A DNA stretch of 64,000 bases. It comes from Henriciella sp. GTDB lineage: Bacteria; Pseudomonadota; Alphaproteobacteria; Caulobacterales; Hyphomonadaceae. This document shows, piece after piece, positions 1,975-7,489 of this stretch. Position 1 is the first letter of the stretch. Each line of letters starts with the position of its first letter. A model generated the notes under the pieces. That model was not told the DNA's origin, ran no database searches, and saw only the letters and a list, made by a program, of their open reading frames with translations. Location: contig NZ_JAPYPG010000001.1 of NCBI RefSeq assembly GCF_029937755.1, positions 62,001 to 126,000 of the forward strand, given 5' to 3'. A program made the position numbers and the translations under genes.

Positions 1975-4239
1975 CTACTCGCCCGTCATATAACGTGGCA
2001 GCCAGCCTTCGTGCGCGTCGCGGAGAGTAGCGAGACTGATCGATTGCGGCGCTGAGCCGACAAGAACGAAATCGATCGTATCTGACTTGAGTGTACCTAC
2101 CTGCGTGTATTGCAGACCCGTAGACGAGAGCGTCTTGTGGATGCCGTCTGCGTTGGATGGCGGCACCGCGACCACATAGCGATTTTGGTCCTCACCGAAA
2201 AGGTATCCTGCCCGTCCATCTTCCGGACCAAAGACTTCAGCGCCGAGACCCGCAGCCATAGCGATCTCGGCCACGGTACACGCCACACCGCCATCGCTGA
2301 CATCATGTACAGCCTGTAGAAGGCCGCTTTCGACTAGCTTACGTATACCCTCGCCAGTGTGCTTGGCCTCATCAAGATCGACACCTGGGGGCGGGCCGAG
2401 CGCTTCTTCCTTCAGACCCAGCCATTCGCGAGCATAGAGCGAAGCGCCCAGATGCCCGCCATCAGCGCCAATCAAGAATAGAAGGTCGCCCTCCTGCGCC
2501 CCCTTCAGCGTGGCGACCTTCGAGACATCCTCGATCAGGCCCACACCGCCGACCACAGGCGTCGGCGGGATCGCCTTGCCGTCGGTCTCATTGTAGAGGC
2601 TGACATTGCCGGAAACGACCGGGAAGTCGAGCGCGCGGCAGGCCTCGGCCATGCCCTCGATGGCCTTGACGATATAGCCCATTGTGGCGGGCTTTTCGGG
2701 ATTGCCGAAATTGAGGTTGTCCGTGATCGCGATGGGCGTGGCACCGACGGCTGACAGGTTGCGATAGGCTTCCGCCACCACGGCCTTGCCGCCCTCATAG
2801 GGGTCGGCGGCGACATAGTGCGGGTTGCAGTCGGAACAGATGGCCAGCGCCTTGTTGGTGCCGTGAATGCGGACAATGGCCGCGTCACCCATGGACTGCG
2901 AGCTGTCGATCGTGTCACCCATCACATGGCGGTCATACTGCTCCCAGATCCAGCGCTTTGATGCCATATCAGGTGAGGACATGAGCTTCAGCAGCACTTC
3001 GCCATAGTCTTCCGGCTCTGGATATTTCGAAACATCGAAAGGCTGGCGTACCTTCGGCTCGATCCATGGCCGGTCATAATTCGGGGCATCTTCAGCCAGC
3101 GGTGCGACCGGGATGTCGCATACGACCTCGCCAAACTGTTTGAGCACCATATGGCCGCTATCAGTCGTCATGCCGATCACTTCGGCATCAAGGTCGTATT
3201 TCTCGAATATCGCCTTCGCCGTTTCGATCTTGTCGGGATAGAGCACCATGAGCATCCGCTCCTGGCTTTCCGACAGCATGATCTCGTAGGCGGTCATGCC
3301 GGTTTCACGCTGGGGCACCTTGTCGAGGTCCATCTCCACGCCGATGCCTTCGCCATTCTCGCCGCCGCTATCGGCCATCTCGACGGAGGAAGAGGTCAGG
3401 CCCGCTGCACCCATGTCCTGGATCGCCTGGATCGCATCGGTCGCCATCAGTTCGAGGCAGGCTTCAATCAGCAGCTTCTCGGTGAACGGATCGCCCACCT
3501 GGACTGTCGGGCGCTTTTCCTCGTCGCCTTCGGAGAATTCCGCAGACGCCATGGTCGCGCCATGAATGCCGTCGCGCCCGGTCTTTGAGCCGACATAGAA
3601 GATCGGGTTGCCCGGCGTTGCGCCGCGCGCATAGAAAATCTTGTCCTGATCGGCGAGGCCGACGGCCATCGCATTGACGAGGATATTGCCATTATAGCCC
3701 TCATCGAACTGCGTTTCTCCCGCCACCGTCGGTACGCCGACGCAGTTGCCATAGCCGCCAATACCGGAGACCACACCCGCCACGAGGCTGCGGGTCTTCG
3801 GATGGTCCGGGCTACCAAAACGCAGCGCATTCACCAGCGCGATCGGACGCGCGCCCATGGTGAAAACATCGCGCAGGATGCCGCCGACGCCTGTCGCCGC
3901 GCCCTGATATGGCTCAATGTATGATGGGTGGTTGTGACTCTCCATCTTGAAGATGGCCGCCTGTCCGTCACCAATATCGATAACACCTGCATTCTCACCC
4001 GGCCCCTGAATGACCCGGTCATTCTTGGTCGGGAACTTCGAGAGATGCCGGCGCGAGGACTTGTAGGAACAGTGCTCCGACCACATCACGGAATAGATAC
4101 CAAGTTCCACGAGATTGGGCTGACGCTCGAGCCTTGTAACGAGGCGATTCCATTCTTCGGCATTGATGCCGTGGCCGGCAGCATCGGTTTCGGTCTGCTC
4201 GGCCTTCAGATGGGTGAGGATGGCGGATGTGTCTGTCAT
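1975..4239 (-). CDS. purL: Phosphoribosylformylglycinamidine synthase subunit PurL
   Basis: Synthetase subunit of FGAM synthase, which makes formylglycinamidine ribonucleotide from FGAR, ATP and ammonia in de novo purine synthesis. The 754-residue product has the length of the small PurL that works with separate PurQ and PurS, not of the about 1300-residue fused enzyme. Conserved motifs include WSEHCSYK (residues 53-60) and ESHNHPS (100-106) of the N-terminal half and the later HDVSDGGV segment of the second half. The PurQ partner lies on the same strand at 10012-10674, separated by unrelated genes. No purS is seen in the window. The start at 4239 gives the normal family N-terminus. Confidence 0.97.
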
Positions 4240-4368: not shown

Positions 4369-4980
4369 ATGCGCCATATTTCATTGAGCCTCGCCGCGCT
4401 GGCGCTGGCGGCCTGCGGCAGCGGCAGCGTCGACCCTGACGCGCGGATGCCCACGCCATACCCCGAAGACAGCGACGGGCCGACCACCTCGATTGAATCA
4501 TCGCAGTGGTCAAACCCGGTCACATCGACCGAAGTGTCTGAAGACGCCATGGACGGCGAATGGACCTCGACCACGATCAGCGGCGACTCCGCTGTCCAGT
4601 TCGCAGACGCTGAAGGCAACAACCAGGTCGCCGTGATCTGTCGTGAAGGCGACGAGGACCAGGCCAACTCCCTTACCCTGCGCCGCTATGTGGCAGAGGA
4701 TATGGATTTCGGTGAAGACTCCTCGATCACGGTCTACACGTCAGCAGGCTCGAAGCAGTATGTGGCATCGTCCGCGCCGGTCGATGTGACGACGTCGCTT
4801 GGTGACTATTTCGCTTCGATGATCGGTTCGGCGCGCGGTGACATCCGCATTATTGTCGACGACGAAATGGTGATCATTCCGTCCGACGAAGCCGTCCGCG
4901 AGCTGGTCGCCAGCTGCCGTCCTGAAATGGAATATCAGGGCCCGCAAACTGACGATGAGAGCGAAGAAGAGTCTGAATAA
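4369..4980 (+). CDS. Putative acidic lipoprotein of unknown function
   Basis: A 203-residue product beginning with a lipoprotein signal, hydrophobic stretch LSLAALALAA followed by Cys at about residue 16 (lipobox LAAC). The ATG at 4369 is preceded by GGAGGA about 8 bp upstream and is preferred over a much longer upstream frame that is antisense to purL. The mature part is rich in Asp, Glu, Ser and Thr, with a run of acidic residues at the C-terminus. I recognise no domain. It is divergently oriented from purL and followed by a strong terminator, so it is probably a single-gene transcript. Likely anchored to the outer membrane on the periplasmic side. Confidence 0.75.
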   Translation: MRHISLSLAALALAACGSGSVDPDARMPTPYPEDSDGPTTSIESSQWSNPVTSTEVSEDAMDGEWTSTTISGDSAVQFADAEGNNQVAVICREGDEDQANSLTLRRYVAEDMDFGEDSSITVYTSAGSKQYVASSAPVDVTTSLGDYFASMIGSARGDIRIIVDDEMVIIPSDEAVRELVASCRPEMEYQGPQTDDESEEESE

Positions 4981-5004
4981 GGACCGCTTCGACCACGCAT
5001 TCGG

Positions 5005-5037
5005 AAGGGCCGGCCTTGATGAGGACCGGCCCTTTTT
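5005..5037 (+). terminator. Intrinsic terminator after the acidic lipoprotein gene
   Basis: AAGGGCCGG and CCGGCCCTT form a GC-rich stem with a loop of about 10-12 nt, directly followed by a run of T (5032-5037). It sits 25 bp after the stop codon at 4980. Confidence 0.85.
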
Positions 5038-5109
5038 CATGCCTCCGCTTGCCTTGCCAGTGCACCTTGAGCACACAGGAAAAGGGCGCAGCCTACGGAG
5101 GCTCATCTG

Positions 5110-6231
5110 ATGCGACGACGCGATGTCCTTACCGGTCTCGGCCTCACGACCTTGAGTGCCTGCACGACGGCAGCGCCCTCTGCACCAGTGCTGCAAGGCT
5201 ATCAGCCACGCCGGACCTATGCGCCGGTTCAATCCTCGATCAGTCGTGTGACCCGAACCGTGGTGGGTCTTCGCCCCTACCGGCCGCAAGGATACCGGCT
5301 GGAAGCAGAAACGCTGGGCGACAAGACCGTCATCCACAATTACGGGCATGGCGGCTGCGGCGTGACCATGAGCTGGGGTACGAGCCAGGTCGCCGCAGAC
5401 CTCGCCACCTCATCCGGCGCCTCCTCCGTCGCGGTACTTGGGGCCGGCGTCATGGGGCTGACGACTGCGCTTATCCTTGCCCGACGGGGACATGACGTCA
5501 CGGTCTATGCCGAGCACCTTCCCCCGCACACAACGTCGAACATTGCTGGTGTCCTGTGGCTTCCCACAGGCTATTTCGACCGGGACGTCGCCACACCAGA
5601 ATTCCTGCGGCGCAACCGCATCCTCATCCGGGCCGCACATCGCGGCTTCCTACCTTACGTCAACCGGCCTGGCTATGGCGTTTACTGGTCGGATCATCAC
5701 GCCCTCTCACGCTGGTCACCGAAGACCTACAACACCCTGCCGGGTGGCGATGACCTTTACCCGGAACTGCAGCGCGCGCATGAGAACACTCTCTTCGGAT
5801 ATGCCTTCATGGAGCGGTTCCGGGCGTTGATCATCGACCCTGACTATTATCTCGATCAGATCATGAAGGATGCGCAGCTCGCCGGTGCGCAATTCATCGG
5901 CGCGACGCTCGGCCCCGAAGATGTCGCCGCCCTTCCCCAGTCCGTCATCGTGAATTGCACAGGGCTGGGCGCACGTGATCTTTTCGGAGACGAGGACCTG
6001 GTGCCCATTCGCGGGCAACTCTCCCACCTTCTGCCACAGCCGGAGATCGACTATTCCTACGTCGCGCCGACCTCGCAGGGCGTGCTCTACATGTTTCCCC
6101 GCCGCACCGGCATCGTGCTCGGCGGCACACATGAAATGGGCGAGGCCAGCCTGGAAGCCGACCCCGCCCAGATCAAACGCATTGTGGAAGGCCATGCCGA
6201 CCTGGCCGGCCGGCTCGACACGACGGCCTGA
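5110..6231 (+). CDS. D-amino-acid-oxidase-like FAD enzyme with permuted domain order, exported
   Basis: FAD-dependent oxidoreductase of the DAO fold, 373 residues. In ordinary D-amino-acid oxidases the FAD-binding GxGxxG motif is at the extreme N-terminus and the GLRP plus NYGHGG motifs are at the C-terminus. Here the order is reversed. VGLRPYRPQ is at residues 52-60 and HNYGHGGCGVT at 76-86, and only then comes the Rossmann strand-loop with GAGVMG at 111-116. The C-terminus ends after the RGQ and LGGTHE segments, just where GLRP would normally follow. The N-terminus MRRRDVLTGLGL followed by LSAC suggests a Tat or lipoprotein signal. An RBS (ACGGAGG) precedes the ATG. D-amino acid or similar amine oxidation is likely; the exact substrate is unknown. 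Confidence 0.85.
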   Translation: MRRRDVLTGLGLTTLSACTTAAPSAPVLQGYQPRRTYAPVQSSISRVTRTVVGLRPYRPQGYRLEAETLGDKTVIHNYGHGGCGVTMSWGTSQVAADLATSSGASSVAVLGAGVMGLTTALILARRGHDVTVYAEHLPPHTTSNIAGVLWLPTGYFDRDVATPEFLRRNRILIRAAHRGFLPYVNRPGYGVYWSDHHALSRWSPKTYNTLPGGDDLYPELQRAHENTLFGYAFMERFRALIIDPDYYLDQIMKDAQLAGAQFIGATLGPEDVAALPQSVIVNCTGLGARDLFGDEDLVPIRGQLSHLLPQPEIDYSYVAPTSQGVLYMFPRRTGIVLGGTHEMGEASLEADPAQIKRIVEGHADLAGRLDTTA

Positions 6232-6241
6232 AGCCGTCGAC

Positions 6242-7489
6242 CTATTCGGCCTCGTTGGCAGCCTGGGCTGCGGTCCATGTCTCGGCCTGCTCGCTAACAA
6301 TGGTCACGAGATTGCCCATGGCAACGTTCATGTCGATCAGGTGAAGCCCCCAGTCGCCAAGCACCTCTCCCTCGACGACCACATCCCCGACAATATCATC
6401 GGCGCGAGGGTCGGCGGTATCGCCATCCACCTGCACAGCAAGATAGGTGTGGGCATCGGTCTCGACGCACTCTGCCGAAAGCATGCCGGGCAAGGCGGCA
6501 TAATCCGTCTCGATGGTTTCCCCTTCGATGAAGGATGTATTGTCGAGCCCGAAGAAGCCCGCTCGCGACAGGCGGGCGTCGAGTTCACCGTCATCGCCTG
6601 AAAGCTCGGCCGGGTTGATACAAAGCGCGCGGCGGCCATCTGGATCGTTAACGCCAAAACGGCTCTCGGCCGGCGGCGGGCTGTCTGCTCTGAAGGAGAC
6701 ATAGGAAATCACGCAGCCGGTCTGTCCCGCCGTCGTGCACGGCTCCAGCGAACCGAGATTGCCCGTCTCTGCATCGCCATAAACCGTGTAGCCAATAGGC
6801 ATGGCTGAAACGACAAGGTCTTCTTCCGTGCTGCCGAGGACATCCTGGCGCAACAGCTGTTCGATCATCCTGGCGCCCTGCGAGTGGCCGATCAGGACGA
6901 CGCCACGACCATTGTTTTCTTTATCCAGATAGGTGTCCCAGGCCGCTTTCACATCGCCATAGGCCAGTTCGGCATCGGCGGTGTACTCGCCGCCCCGCAT
7001 GAGCGACTGCAGATGGGTGAGCGTCACCTGCCGGTACACCGGCGCAAACAGGCGACAGGTCTCGGCAAAAGCACCGAACTGTGTTGCAGCCACACGGTTT
7101 TCTTCGCCACCAGCCTCAAGATCGCTATTCGGCGTCGTGTCGAACGAAATGGTGGGATAGACGTAGAAACAGTCAATGGGCGGGTTCTCCGCAGGCTCGA
7201 AGCTTTTCACTTCCGTCGATCCGTCAGCCTGCACAACCGTGTAAGAAAGATCCTTCTCACAGGCATCGCCCTCCTTGCCGGGATGGCAGAGCCAGTTGGC
7301 CATATCGTTATAATCGGCTGGCTGTGTGGCAGTCTGGTCGGCTGCAGCTTCGCCATCGGCGCCGGACGTCTCATCAGCCTCAGCCGGTGGCGGTGATGCT
7401 GCCTCGACATCACCTGTCTCGTCAGCCGGTTCACCGCAGGCCCCTATGAGCAGGGCGCTCACAAGCGCAGTGACAGAAAGCAATCTCAT
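6242..7489 (-). CDS. DUF3089 family alpha/beta-hydrolase-like lipoprotein
   Basis: A 415-residue exported protein. The N-terminus MRLLSVTALVSALLIGAC is a lipoprotein signal with Cys at residue 18, followed by a low-complexity Asp/Glu/Ala/Pro linker to about residue 60. The body carries DUF3089 hallmarks: DCFYVYPT, the APVYRQ segment, and the nucleophile elbow GHSQG with the likely catalytic Ser at residue 203. The family is predicted to be a lipase- or esterase-like alpha/beta hydrolase but is poorly characterised. Its tail faces the permuted oxidase, with 10 bp between the stops. Function beyond a probable ester hydrolase is not deducible. Confidence 0.85.
   Translation of the reverse strand: MRLLSVTALVSALLIGACGEPADETGDVEAASPPPAEADETSGADGEAAADQTATQPADYNDMANWLCHPGKEGDACEKDLSYTVVQADGSTEVKSFEPAENPPIDCFYVYPTISFDTTPNSDLEAGGEENRVAATQFGAFAETCRLFAPVYRQVTLTHLQSLMRGGEYTADAELAYGDVKAAWDTYLDKENNGRGVVLIGHSQGARMIEQLLRQDVLGSTEEDLVVSAMPIGYTVYGDAETGNLGSLEPCTTAGQTGCVISYVSFRADSPPPAESRFGVNDPDGRRALCINPAELSGDDGELDARLSRAGFFGLDNTSFIEGETIETDYAALPGMLSAECVETDAHTYLAVQVDGDTADPRADDIVGDVVVEGEVLGDWGLHLIDMNVAMGNLVTIVSEQAETWTAAQAANEAE

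Follow-up and report, generated by a model that had tools for sequence, protein, structure and literature searches.

A D-amino-acid-oxidase-like protein of Henriciella sp. with a reversed block order shared by relatives in several bacterial phyla and a putative export signal

The gene at 5110-6231 on the plus strand of the window (the 64,000-nucleotide stretch of Henriciella sp. DNA analyzed here, from a genome of 3.78 Mb) encodes a protein in which the two blocks of the D-amino-acid oxidase (DAO) family occur in reversed order: the block that is normally C-terminal precedes the part that normally begins with the FAD-binding motif. This order is conserved among relatives, a single branch separates it from the canonical order in phylogenetic trees, and the protein is predicted with confidence to have a DAO-like fold. 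The permuted DAO is a family distributed across several phyla and not a local oddity. Our main reading, to which we assign a probability of roughly 0.75, is that the protein is a natural circular permutant of the D-amino-acid/D-aspartate oxidase fold that would bind FAD, be exported by the Tat system, be anchored by a lipid on Cys18 and oxidize D-amino acids or amines in the periplasm, with either O2 or the respiratory chain as electron acceptor. The gene and its parts are as follows.

5097..5101 (+): GGAGG, a ribosome-binding-type sequence 8 nt ahead of the ATG (direct sequence reading)
5110..6231 (+): permuted DAO gene, 373 aa plus stop, ATG start, intact frame (ORF list)
5110..5160 (+): residues 1-17, putative twin-arginine signal peptide with RRR, a hydrophobic stretch and L-S-A (sequence; RR counts in relatives)
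5161..5163 (+): Cys18 in the lipobox LSAC, where the mature protein would begin with a lipid-modified residue (sequence; lipobox-like strings in relatives)
5164..5238 (+): residues 19-43, variable tether from anchor to fold (low pLDDT at residues 1-27; highest dN at residues 1-43)
5239..5415 (+): residues 44-102, the block found at the C-terminus of canonical DAO, with GLRPYRP, HNYGHGG and the last helix (PDB alignments)
5272..5274 (+): Arg55 (conserved across permuted and canonical representatives)
5404..5424 (+): residues 99-105, new join of the former C-terminal helix to the former first strand (model; block-gap counts)
5425..6210 (+): residues 106-367, N-terminal part in canonical DAO, comprising the FAD-binding start (GAGVMG, 111-116) together with the remaining DAO core (6rkf alignment; Pfam DAO match at 107-360)
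6088..6090 (+): Tyr327, in LYMFPR (alignment to 8hy5; residue counts per clade)

The first-pass annotation of this DNA had placed GLRP at residues 53-56, NYGHGG at 77-82 and GAGVMG at 111-116 within one continuous frame preceded by a ribosome-binding site, and direct reading of the sequence bore out all of these positions as well as the frame. Specifically, the FAD-binding GxGxxG motif is GAGVMG, directly after a predicted strand at 106-110, while GLRPYR (53-58) and YGHGGCG (78-84) correspond to the signatures GxRPxR and YGHGGxG. PMC9844085 gives these two signatures for bacterial D-amino-acid oxidases (DAAOs) and reports that some glycine oxidases carry both too. The score against the glycine oxidase ThiO model TIGR02352 (56.5 bits) is below the NCBIfam equivalog cut-off of 250.8. 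Between the DAO gene and the gene directly upstream, which encodes a small lipoprotein-like protein (4375-4980, plus strand) with no Pfam match at E-values up to 0.001, an inverted repeat followed by T's was noted by eye at 5005-5037 (AAGGGCCGG ... CCGGCCCTT); the terminator scan did not list this repeat, whose 12-nt loop exceeds the limits of the scan. The repeat suggests that the DAO gene may have its own transcription. A sigma-70 promoter scan of 4900-6300 found no promoter, and no RNA genes were found in a search across the window.

In canonical DAOs the FAD motif comes first and GxRPxR and YGHGGxG come last; in the window protein this order is reversed. Following phmmer comparison with human D-aspartate oxidase (DASPO; 6rkf), residues 103-359 of the window protein aligned with residues 11-264 (68.6 bits) and residues 49-100 with residues 281-335 (32.3 bits). 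As the E-values of these blocks are 3.9e-18 and 4.2e-7, respectively, the two-block match is not due to chance. The moved block was similarly aligned with 8hy5 (46-98 to 297-352) and 7ct4 (47-98 to 320-371). Two separate stretches were obtained by phmmer for all 17 DAAO/DASPO sequences from the PDB, and their order was reversed in all three of the alignments shown. A family profile of 25 members gave two stretches in 16 of these 17 sequences and one stretch in 1c0i, and the one alignment shown from this search was again in reversed order. The best stretch spanned both blocks in none of the 32 PDB sequences listed for this profile at E-values up to 1e-5, and therefore no permuted member was found among solved structures. 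The Pfam DAO model (PF01266) matches the window protein with 117.2 bits against a curated cut-off of 27.9, likewise in two stretches, the best of which relates residues 107-360 to profile positions 2-291 of 353. It had also been claimed that the chain ends at the point where GLRP would normally follow, and this agrees with the human DASPO alignment, in which the two blocks are separated only by residues 265-280.

A rotation scan was performed with a profile built solely from 22 canonical-order relatives, moving the start of each sequence in steps of 3, on 65 permuted representatives with less than 80% mutual identity. The score of the window protein rose from 163.9 bits as encoded to 238.4 bits when it was rotated to start near residue 105, close to the FAD motif. 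A gain of more than 15 bits was observed for 64 of the 65 permuted representatives and for none of the 22 canonical controls, which were scored with leave-one-out profiles. The sole permuted protein without such a gain was that of Acetobacter locus L055 (50.4 to 51.0 bits).

The first-pass annotation proposed a search for homologues with the same order, and such homologues were found in many independent genomes. Within the same family as the window genome, 55 of 105 genomes contained a match at E-values up to 1e-20; each match extended from query residue 35 or earlier to residue 332 or later, and therefore each has the permuted order. The class search gave matches in 17 of 385 genomes, 14 of them through both blocks, with the remainder comprising one divergent permuted protein (L074), one canonical protein (L075) and one fragment (L076). 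L074 (minus-strand ORF, 425 aa) is a very divergent member from a genome of 1.9 Mb that belongs to the class of the window genome; its N-terminus is Sec-like and lacks RR. In the phylum search, all matches ran through both blocks (18 of 349 genomes, some of which overlap with those of the earlier searches). In the phylum of an acidobacterial genome (G801), 25 of 199 genomes matched (16 permuted, eight canonical and one unsorted), and in the phylum of a chloroflexotal genome (G802), 13 of 201 matched (one permuted, 11 canonical and one unsorted), the one permuted protein being that of G802 itself, the metagenome-assembled genome from which it was found. The acidobacterial genomes of L042 (G801) and L098 (G848) carry five and four long permuted copies, respectively, a local expansion. 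The window genome itself gave one further weak match, L002, which is ThiO-like by eye, and no second full-length relative was found there with the window protein as query.

When 152 stretches (151 loci and the window stretch) were sorted by segment profiles, 96 distinct permuted ORFs, 24 canonical ORFs and eight unsorted hits were obtained; several stretches cover the same gene, and the canonical total counts one gene twice (L135 and L141, one of them an end-cut copy). The gap between the two block matches was 2-16 residues in 94 of the 96 permuted ORFs. Longer joins were observed in L112 and L104, with gaps of 42 and 21 residues between profile matches. The permuted order occurs in records named for six phyla, some of them represented by single metagenome-assembled genomes. 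These records include Henriciella, Hyphomonas, Acetobacter, several Acidobacteriota, Gammaproteobacteria, Candidatus Eremiobacterota, Chloroflexota, Longimicrobiales and Nonomuraea (Actinomycetota). As the Eremiobacterota, Chloroflexota and Gemmatimonadota are each represented by one metagenome-assembled genome, contamination is possible for these members; the Actinomycetota are represented by one isolate record.

For phylogenetic analysis, the blocks were put in the usual order and aligned separately. In a careful tree built from 64 permuted and 21 canonical sequences, from which L074, L121 and the ThiO-like outgroup were omitted owing to very long branches, one branch divides the two orders with support of 100/100 and is present in 100% of 200 bootstrap trees. 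The same split was recovered with support of 93 in a quick tree of 65 permuted and 22 canonical rows plus the ThiO-like outgroup. The mean identity between the permuted and canonical sets is 29%. The permuted side consists of three clades: I (38 representatives, including the window protein), II (22) and III (5), and clade III is separated from I and II with support of 100/99 in the careful tree without L074. The root is fixed by neither tree; if it is placed on the canonical side, then one permutation suffices. A single origin of the permutation, preceding its spread to different phyla, is probable.

A possible route to the new order, although one that we consider less likely than not, is fission of a canonical gene followed by re-fusion of its parts in reverse, rather than tandem duplication and trimming. 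The intermediate of the latter route would be a tandem duplicate that has a GxRPxR block at each end; none of the 96 permuted ORFs carries the C-terminal block twice, which favours fission, as does a Mesorhizobium locus in which the two parts are separate ORFs. The break at this locus is just past the FAD motif, however, away from the junction of the blocks, and it looks like a later frameshift. In this species, Mesorhizobium onobrychidis (L095:2926-3989), the permuted DAO breaks immediately behind the FAD motif into two ORFs that overlap; the gene may be truly split, or the break may reflect a frameshift or a sequencing error.

An AlphaFold2 model of the window protein, based on a 25-row alignment, has a pLDDT of 86.2 and a pTM of 0.85, with pLDDT below 50 at residues 1-27 and 371-373. 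The former C-terminal part forms strands at 47-57, 63-69 and 72-78 and a helix at 84-101, and the former start forms a strand at 106-110 and a helix at 114-125. When the model was compared with the PDB using Foldseek, the best 33 matches were DAAO/DASPO structures (four of these rows, for 4qfd and 4qfc, counted as human DAAO on incomplete titles), with target-normalized TM-scores of 0.54-0.69 over 277-300 columns. Foldseek alignment is sequential, and the moved block lies outside these superpositions on the crystal structures. The DAO fold is thus that of a predicted model compared by sequential alignment, and completion of the active site by the moved block is suggested by the confidence of the model together with residue conservation. 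A clade II member from Acetobacter was modelled similarly (pLDDT 80.0, pTM 0.81), and its top 33 PDB matches were again DAAO/DASPO. A search of a viral structure library with E-values up to 0.001 gave five matches, none named DAAO, with TM-scores by query length of at most 0.44. The structure prediction and comparison with canonical DAO that had been proposed as a check yielded a confident single-fold model whose best PDB matches are DAAO/DASPO.

Arg55, which we take to be the equivalent of the substrate-carboxylate Arg283 of DAAO, is Arg in all 65 permuted and all 22 canonical representatives. Glycines G111, G113 and G116 of the FAD motif are likewise invariant across the 65 permuted representatives. 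Tyr327 aligns with Tyr228 of DAAO. This position is Tyr in 29/38 members of clade I, 2/22 of clade II, 5/5 of clade III and 20/22 canonical representatives; as Tyr is found in only two members of clade II, the substrate may differ in this clade. According to PMC9844085, the Tyr equivalent to Tyr228 is not conserved across all DAAOs. When the window gene was compared with five relatives, dN/dS was 0.08-0.22 in both blocks in nine of ten comparisons, with dS near saturation and the tenth comparison giving no dS estimate. Residues 1-43 had the highest dN of the three parts of the protein in all five comparisons.

These data bear on two further explanations. That the order reflects misassembly of the window genome, or a gene there that is an inactive relic, is scarcely credible: no evidence in support of this was found, the frame is intact, dN/dS is well below 1, and misassembly is ruled out by the same order in many independent genomes. 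The first-pass annotation had already argued against an assembly error from the continuous frame, the ribosome-binding site and the export signal. That the fold is kept by a protein with a binding or scaffold role and no catalysis is improbable; the invariant Arg55 and FAD glycines argue against it. A true circular permutation, as first proposed, is supported by the reversed blocks, the rotation scan with its controls, the order in distant relatives, the low dN/dS and the confident single-fold model.

An export signal had also been predicted. The N-terminus of the window protein (MRRRDVLTGLGLTTLSAC) resembles that of a twin-arginine lipoprotein, with a twin arginine, a hydrophobic stretch and a lipobox cysteine recognized by eye and with simple patterns common to relatives. 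RR occurs within 75 residues before the first block in 38/38 clade I, 21/22 clade II and 2/5 clade III representatives, with the RR of L065 (clade II) and L094 (clade III, upstream of the annotated start) appearing by eye to be due to chance. A lipobox-like string follows RR in 25/38 clade I and 12/22 clade II representatives. No clear export signal was seen by eye in the 24 canonical N-termini. This correlation between export and permutation comes from a biased sample read with simple patterns and by eye. Because clade III mostly lacks an export signal, export cannot account for the permutation in every member, and judging from the N-termini of this clade, the permutation can exist without export. 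Permutation has moved the N-terminus from beside the FAD strand to a former loop, a position that suits an N-terminal export signal and tether. Another protein with the DAO fold, 3dme, which was among the Foldseek matches, is titled 'conserved exported protein'.

The genes surrounding the DAO gene in the window offer no hint of a pathway. The next gene (6242-7489, minus strand) encodes a DUF3089 protein and the gene at 1975-4239 (minus strand) encodes AIR-synthase-type domains of PurL (PurL by reading), and no redox neighbour was found for the window gene, which lacks a thiamine-diphosphate, FAD-oxidoreductase or cytochrome-type neighbour. A conserved operon was considered as a clue to function and rejected, as clustering of neighbours from the window and 28 loci gave only weak repeats. 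Pfam/NCBIfam scans covered 104 of 161 listed neighbour proteins (the other 57 being long proteins, members of the window family and some others), and the most frequent Pfam family among them was Peptidase_S15 (5/104). The survey took 58 loci as input, ten of which (L166, L177, L184, L185, L190, L040, L153, L094, L095 and L091) are missing because simple gene picks gave no core-block match.

Other members of the family have neighbours that point to a different electron acceptor. In the Acetobacteraceae, the gene directly after the permuted one is annotated as cytochrome c or encodes a CxxCH haem motif in all five named loci looked at (Acetobacter L055, L057, L058 and L059 and Kozakia L152), and both followers that were scanned (L055 and L152) had a Pfam cytochrome match. 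The c-type cytochrome genes L055:5245-5796 and L152:4233-4661 have the layout of a periplasmic dehydrogenase gene with its electron acceptor. ORFs with CxxCH also follow the permuted gene in three gammaproteobacterial loci (L041, L043 and L046) and one acidobacterial locus (L122), whereas no such ORF follows any of the 24 canonical ones. This hints that the protein may be a dehydrogenase in lineages with cytochrome-like follower genes. In a broader form of this explanation, the permuted fold is real but the enzyme acts in the periplasm as a dehydrogenase whose electrons go to a c-type cytochrome or a quinone rather than to O2, and its substrates may be other amines or amino-acid derivatives. 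We regard this as possible, though less likely than not. It draws on the cytochrome-like followers and on the position of Tyr327, which is mostly not Tyr in clade II. Against it, the window gene has no redox neighbour, only eight plausible CxxCH neighbours were found among the 96 permuted ORFs, a ninth match (L052) is by eye another kind of protein, and the one gammaproteobacterial follower scanned (L041) had no Pfam match.

A different arrangement was observed on three rhizobial plasmids (Rhizobium L094:1521-5747, Bradyrhizobium L153:2363-6690 and Mesorhizobium L095:2926-5788), where a permuted DAO without an export signal is followed by a thiamine-diphosphate enzyme gene. An FAD-binding oxidoreductase gene precedes the permuted DAO in Rhizobium and Bradyrhizobium; on the Mesorhizobium plasmid, where the permuted gene is split, this gene is absent from the stretch seen. 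Domains were scanned in the Bradyrhizobium locus only, and they are of the berberine-bridge and thiamine-diphosphate types. Of the three rhizobial proteins, the trees include that of Rhizobium, in clade III. These genes form a possible small operon.

For the window protein, the most likely and simplest reading of the sequence is that of an exported FAD enzyme that would oxidize D-amino acids, whose sources could include the medium and the turnover of peptidoglycan. In the natural permutant proposed here, the former C-terminal block (the GxRPxR strands, the NYGHGG flavin loop and the last helix) would have become linked, through a join of only a few residues, to what was the first FAD strand, with new chain ends opened in the stretch formerly ahead of GxRP. 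The protein would then fold with FAD into a DAO-type core, be exported in the folded state by the Tat system and be anchored by a lipid on Cys18. In the periplasm it would oxidize D-amino acids or related amines, and the reduced FAD would be reoxidized either by O2, with formation of H2O2, or by the respiratory chain. A bolder and rather doubtful proposal is that the DAAO fold was permuted a single time, long ago, and gave rise to a large and so far undescribed family of periplasmic amine/D-amino-acid dehydrogenases that are exported and anchored by a lipid. In this view the moved N-terminus made export and tethering possible, and electrons from extracytoplasmic D-amino acids would pass to c-type cytochromes or quinones.

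A whole flavoenzyme fold that is permuted in nature, under purifying selection and in several phyla would be a clean natural experiment on folding, and the family may illustrate how relocating the N-terminus gives an old enzyme access to another compartment of the cell. Its members are matched by the Pfam DAO model only in two pieces, and public plasmid records, where they annotate the permuted gene at all, list it as 'FAD-dependent oxidoreductase'. In agreement with the initial statement that no family with this order had been described, searches of the open-access literature found no description of a permuted D-amino-acid/D-aspartate oxidase or flavoenzyme of this kind, nor of a DAAO with a twin-arginine signal in the periplasm.

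Several known systems can be compared with the window protein. Human D-aspartate oxidase (6rkf) and D-amino-acid oxidases (8hy5, 7ct4 and 2du8) have the same FAD motif, GxRPxR, YGHG loop, substrate-side Tyr and core fold, but their block order is opposite to that of the window protein, which also starts with a putative export signal. The nearest usual-order sequences found are canonical bacterial relatives such as L075, L092, L093 and L128; these have no clear export signal by eye and lie on the opposite side of the tree branch. The bacterial DAAOs of PMC9844085 have both signatures in common with the window protein, and a rearranged order is not reported in the available part of that paper, the main text of which does not contain the stem 'permut'. 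The circularly permuted FMN-bind1 proteins described in PMC11334425 are likewise bacterial extracytosolic flavoproteins that have been permuted in nature; however, they involve another domain, which is covalently flavinylated, whereas the permutation in the window protein is of the DAO fold.
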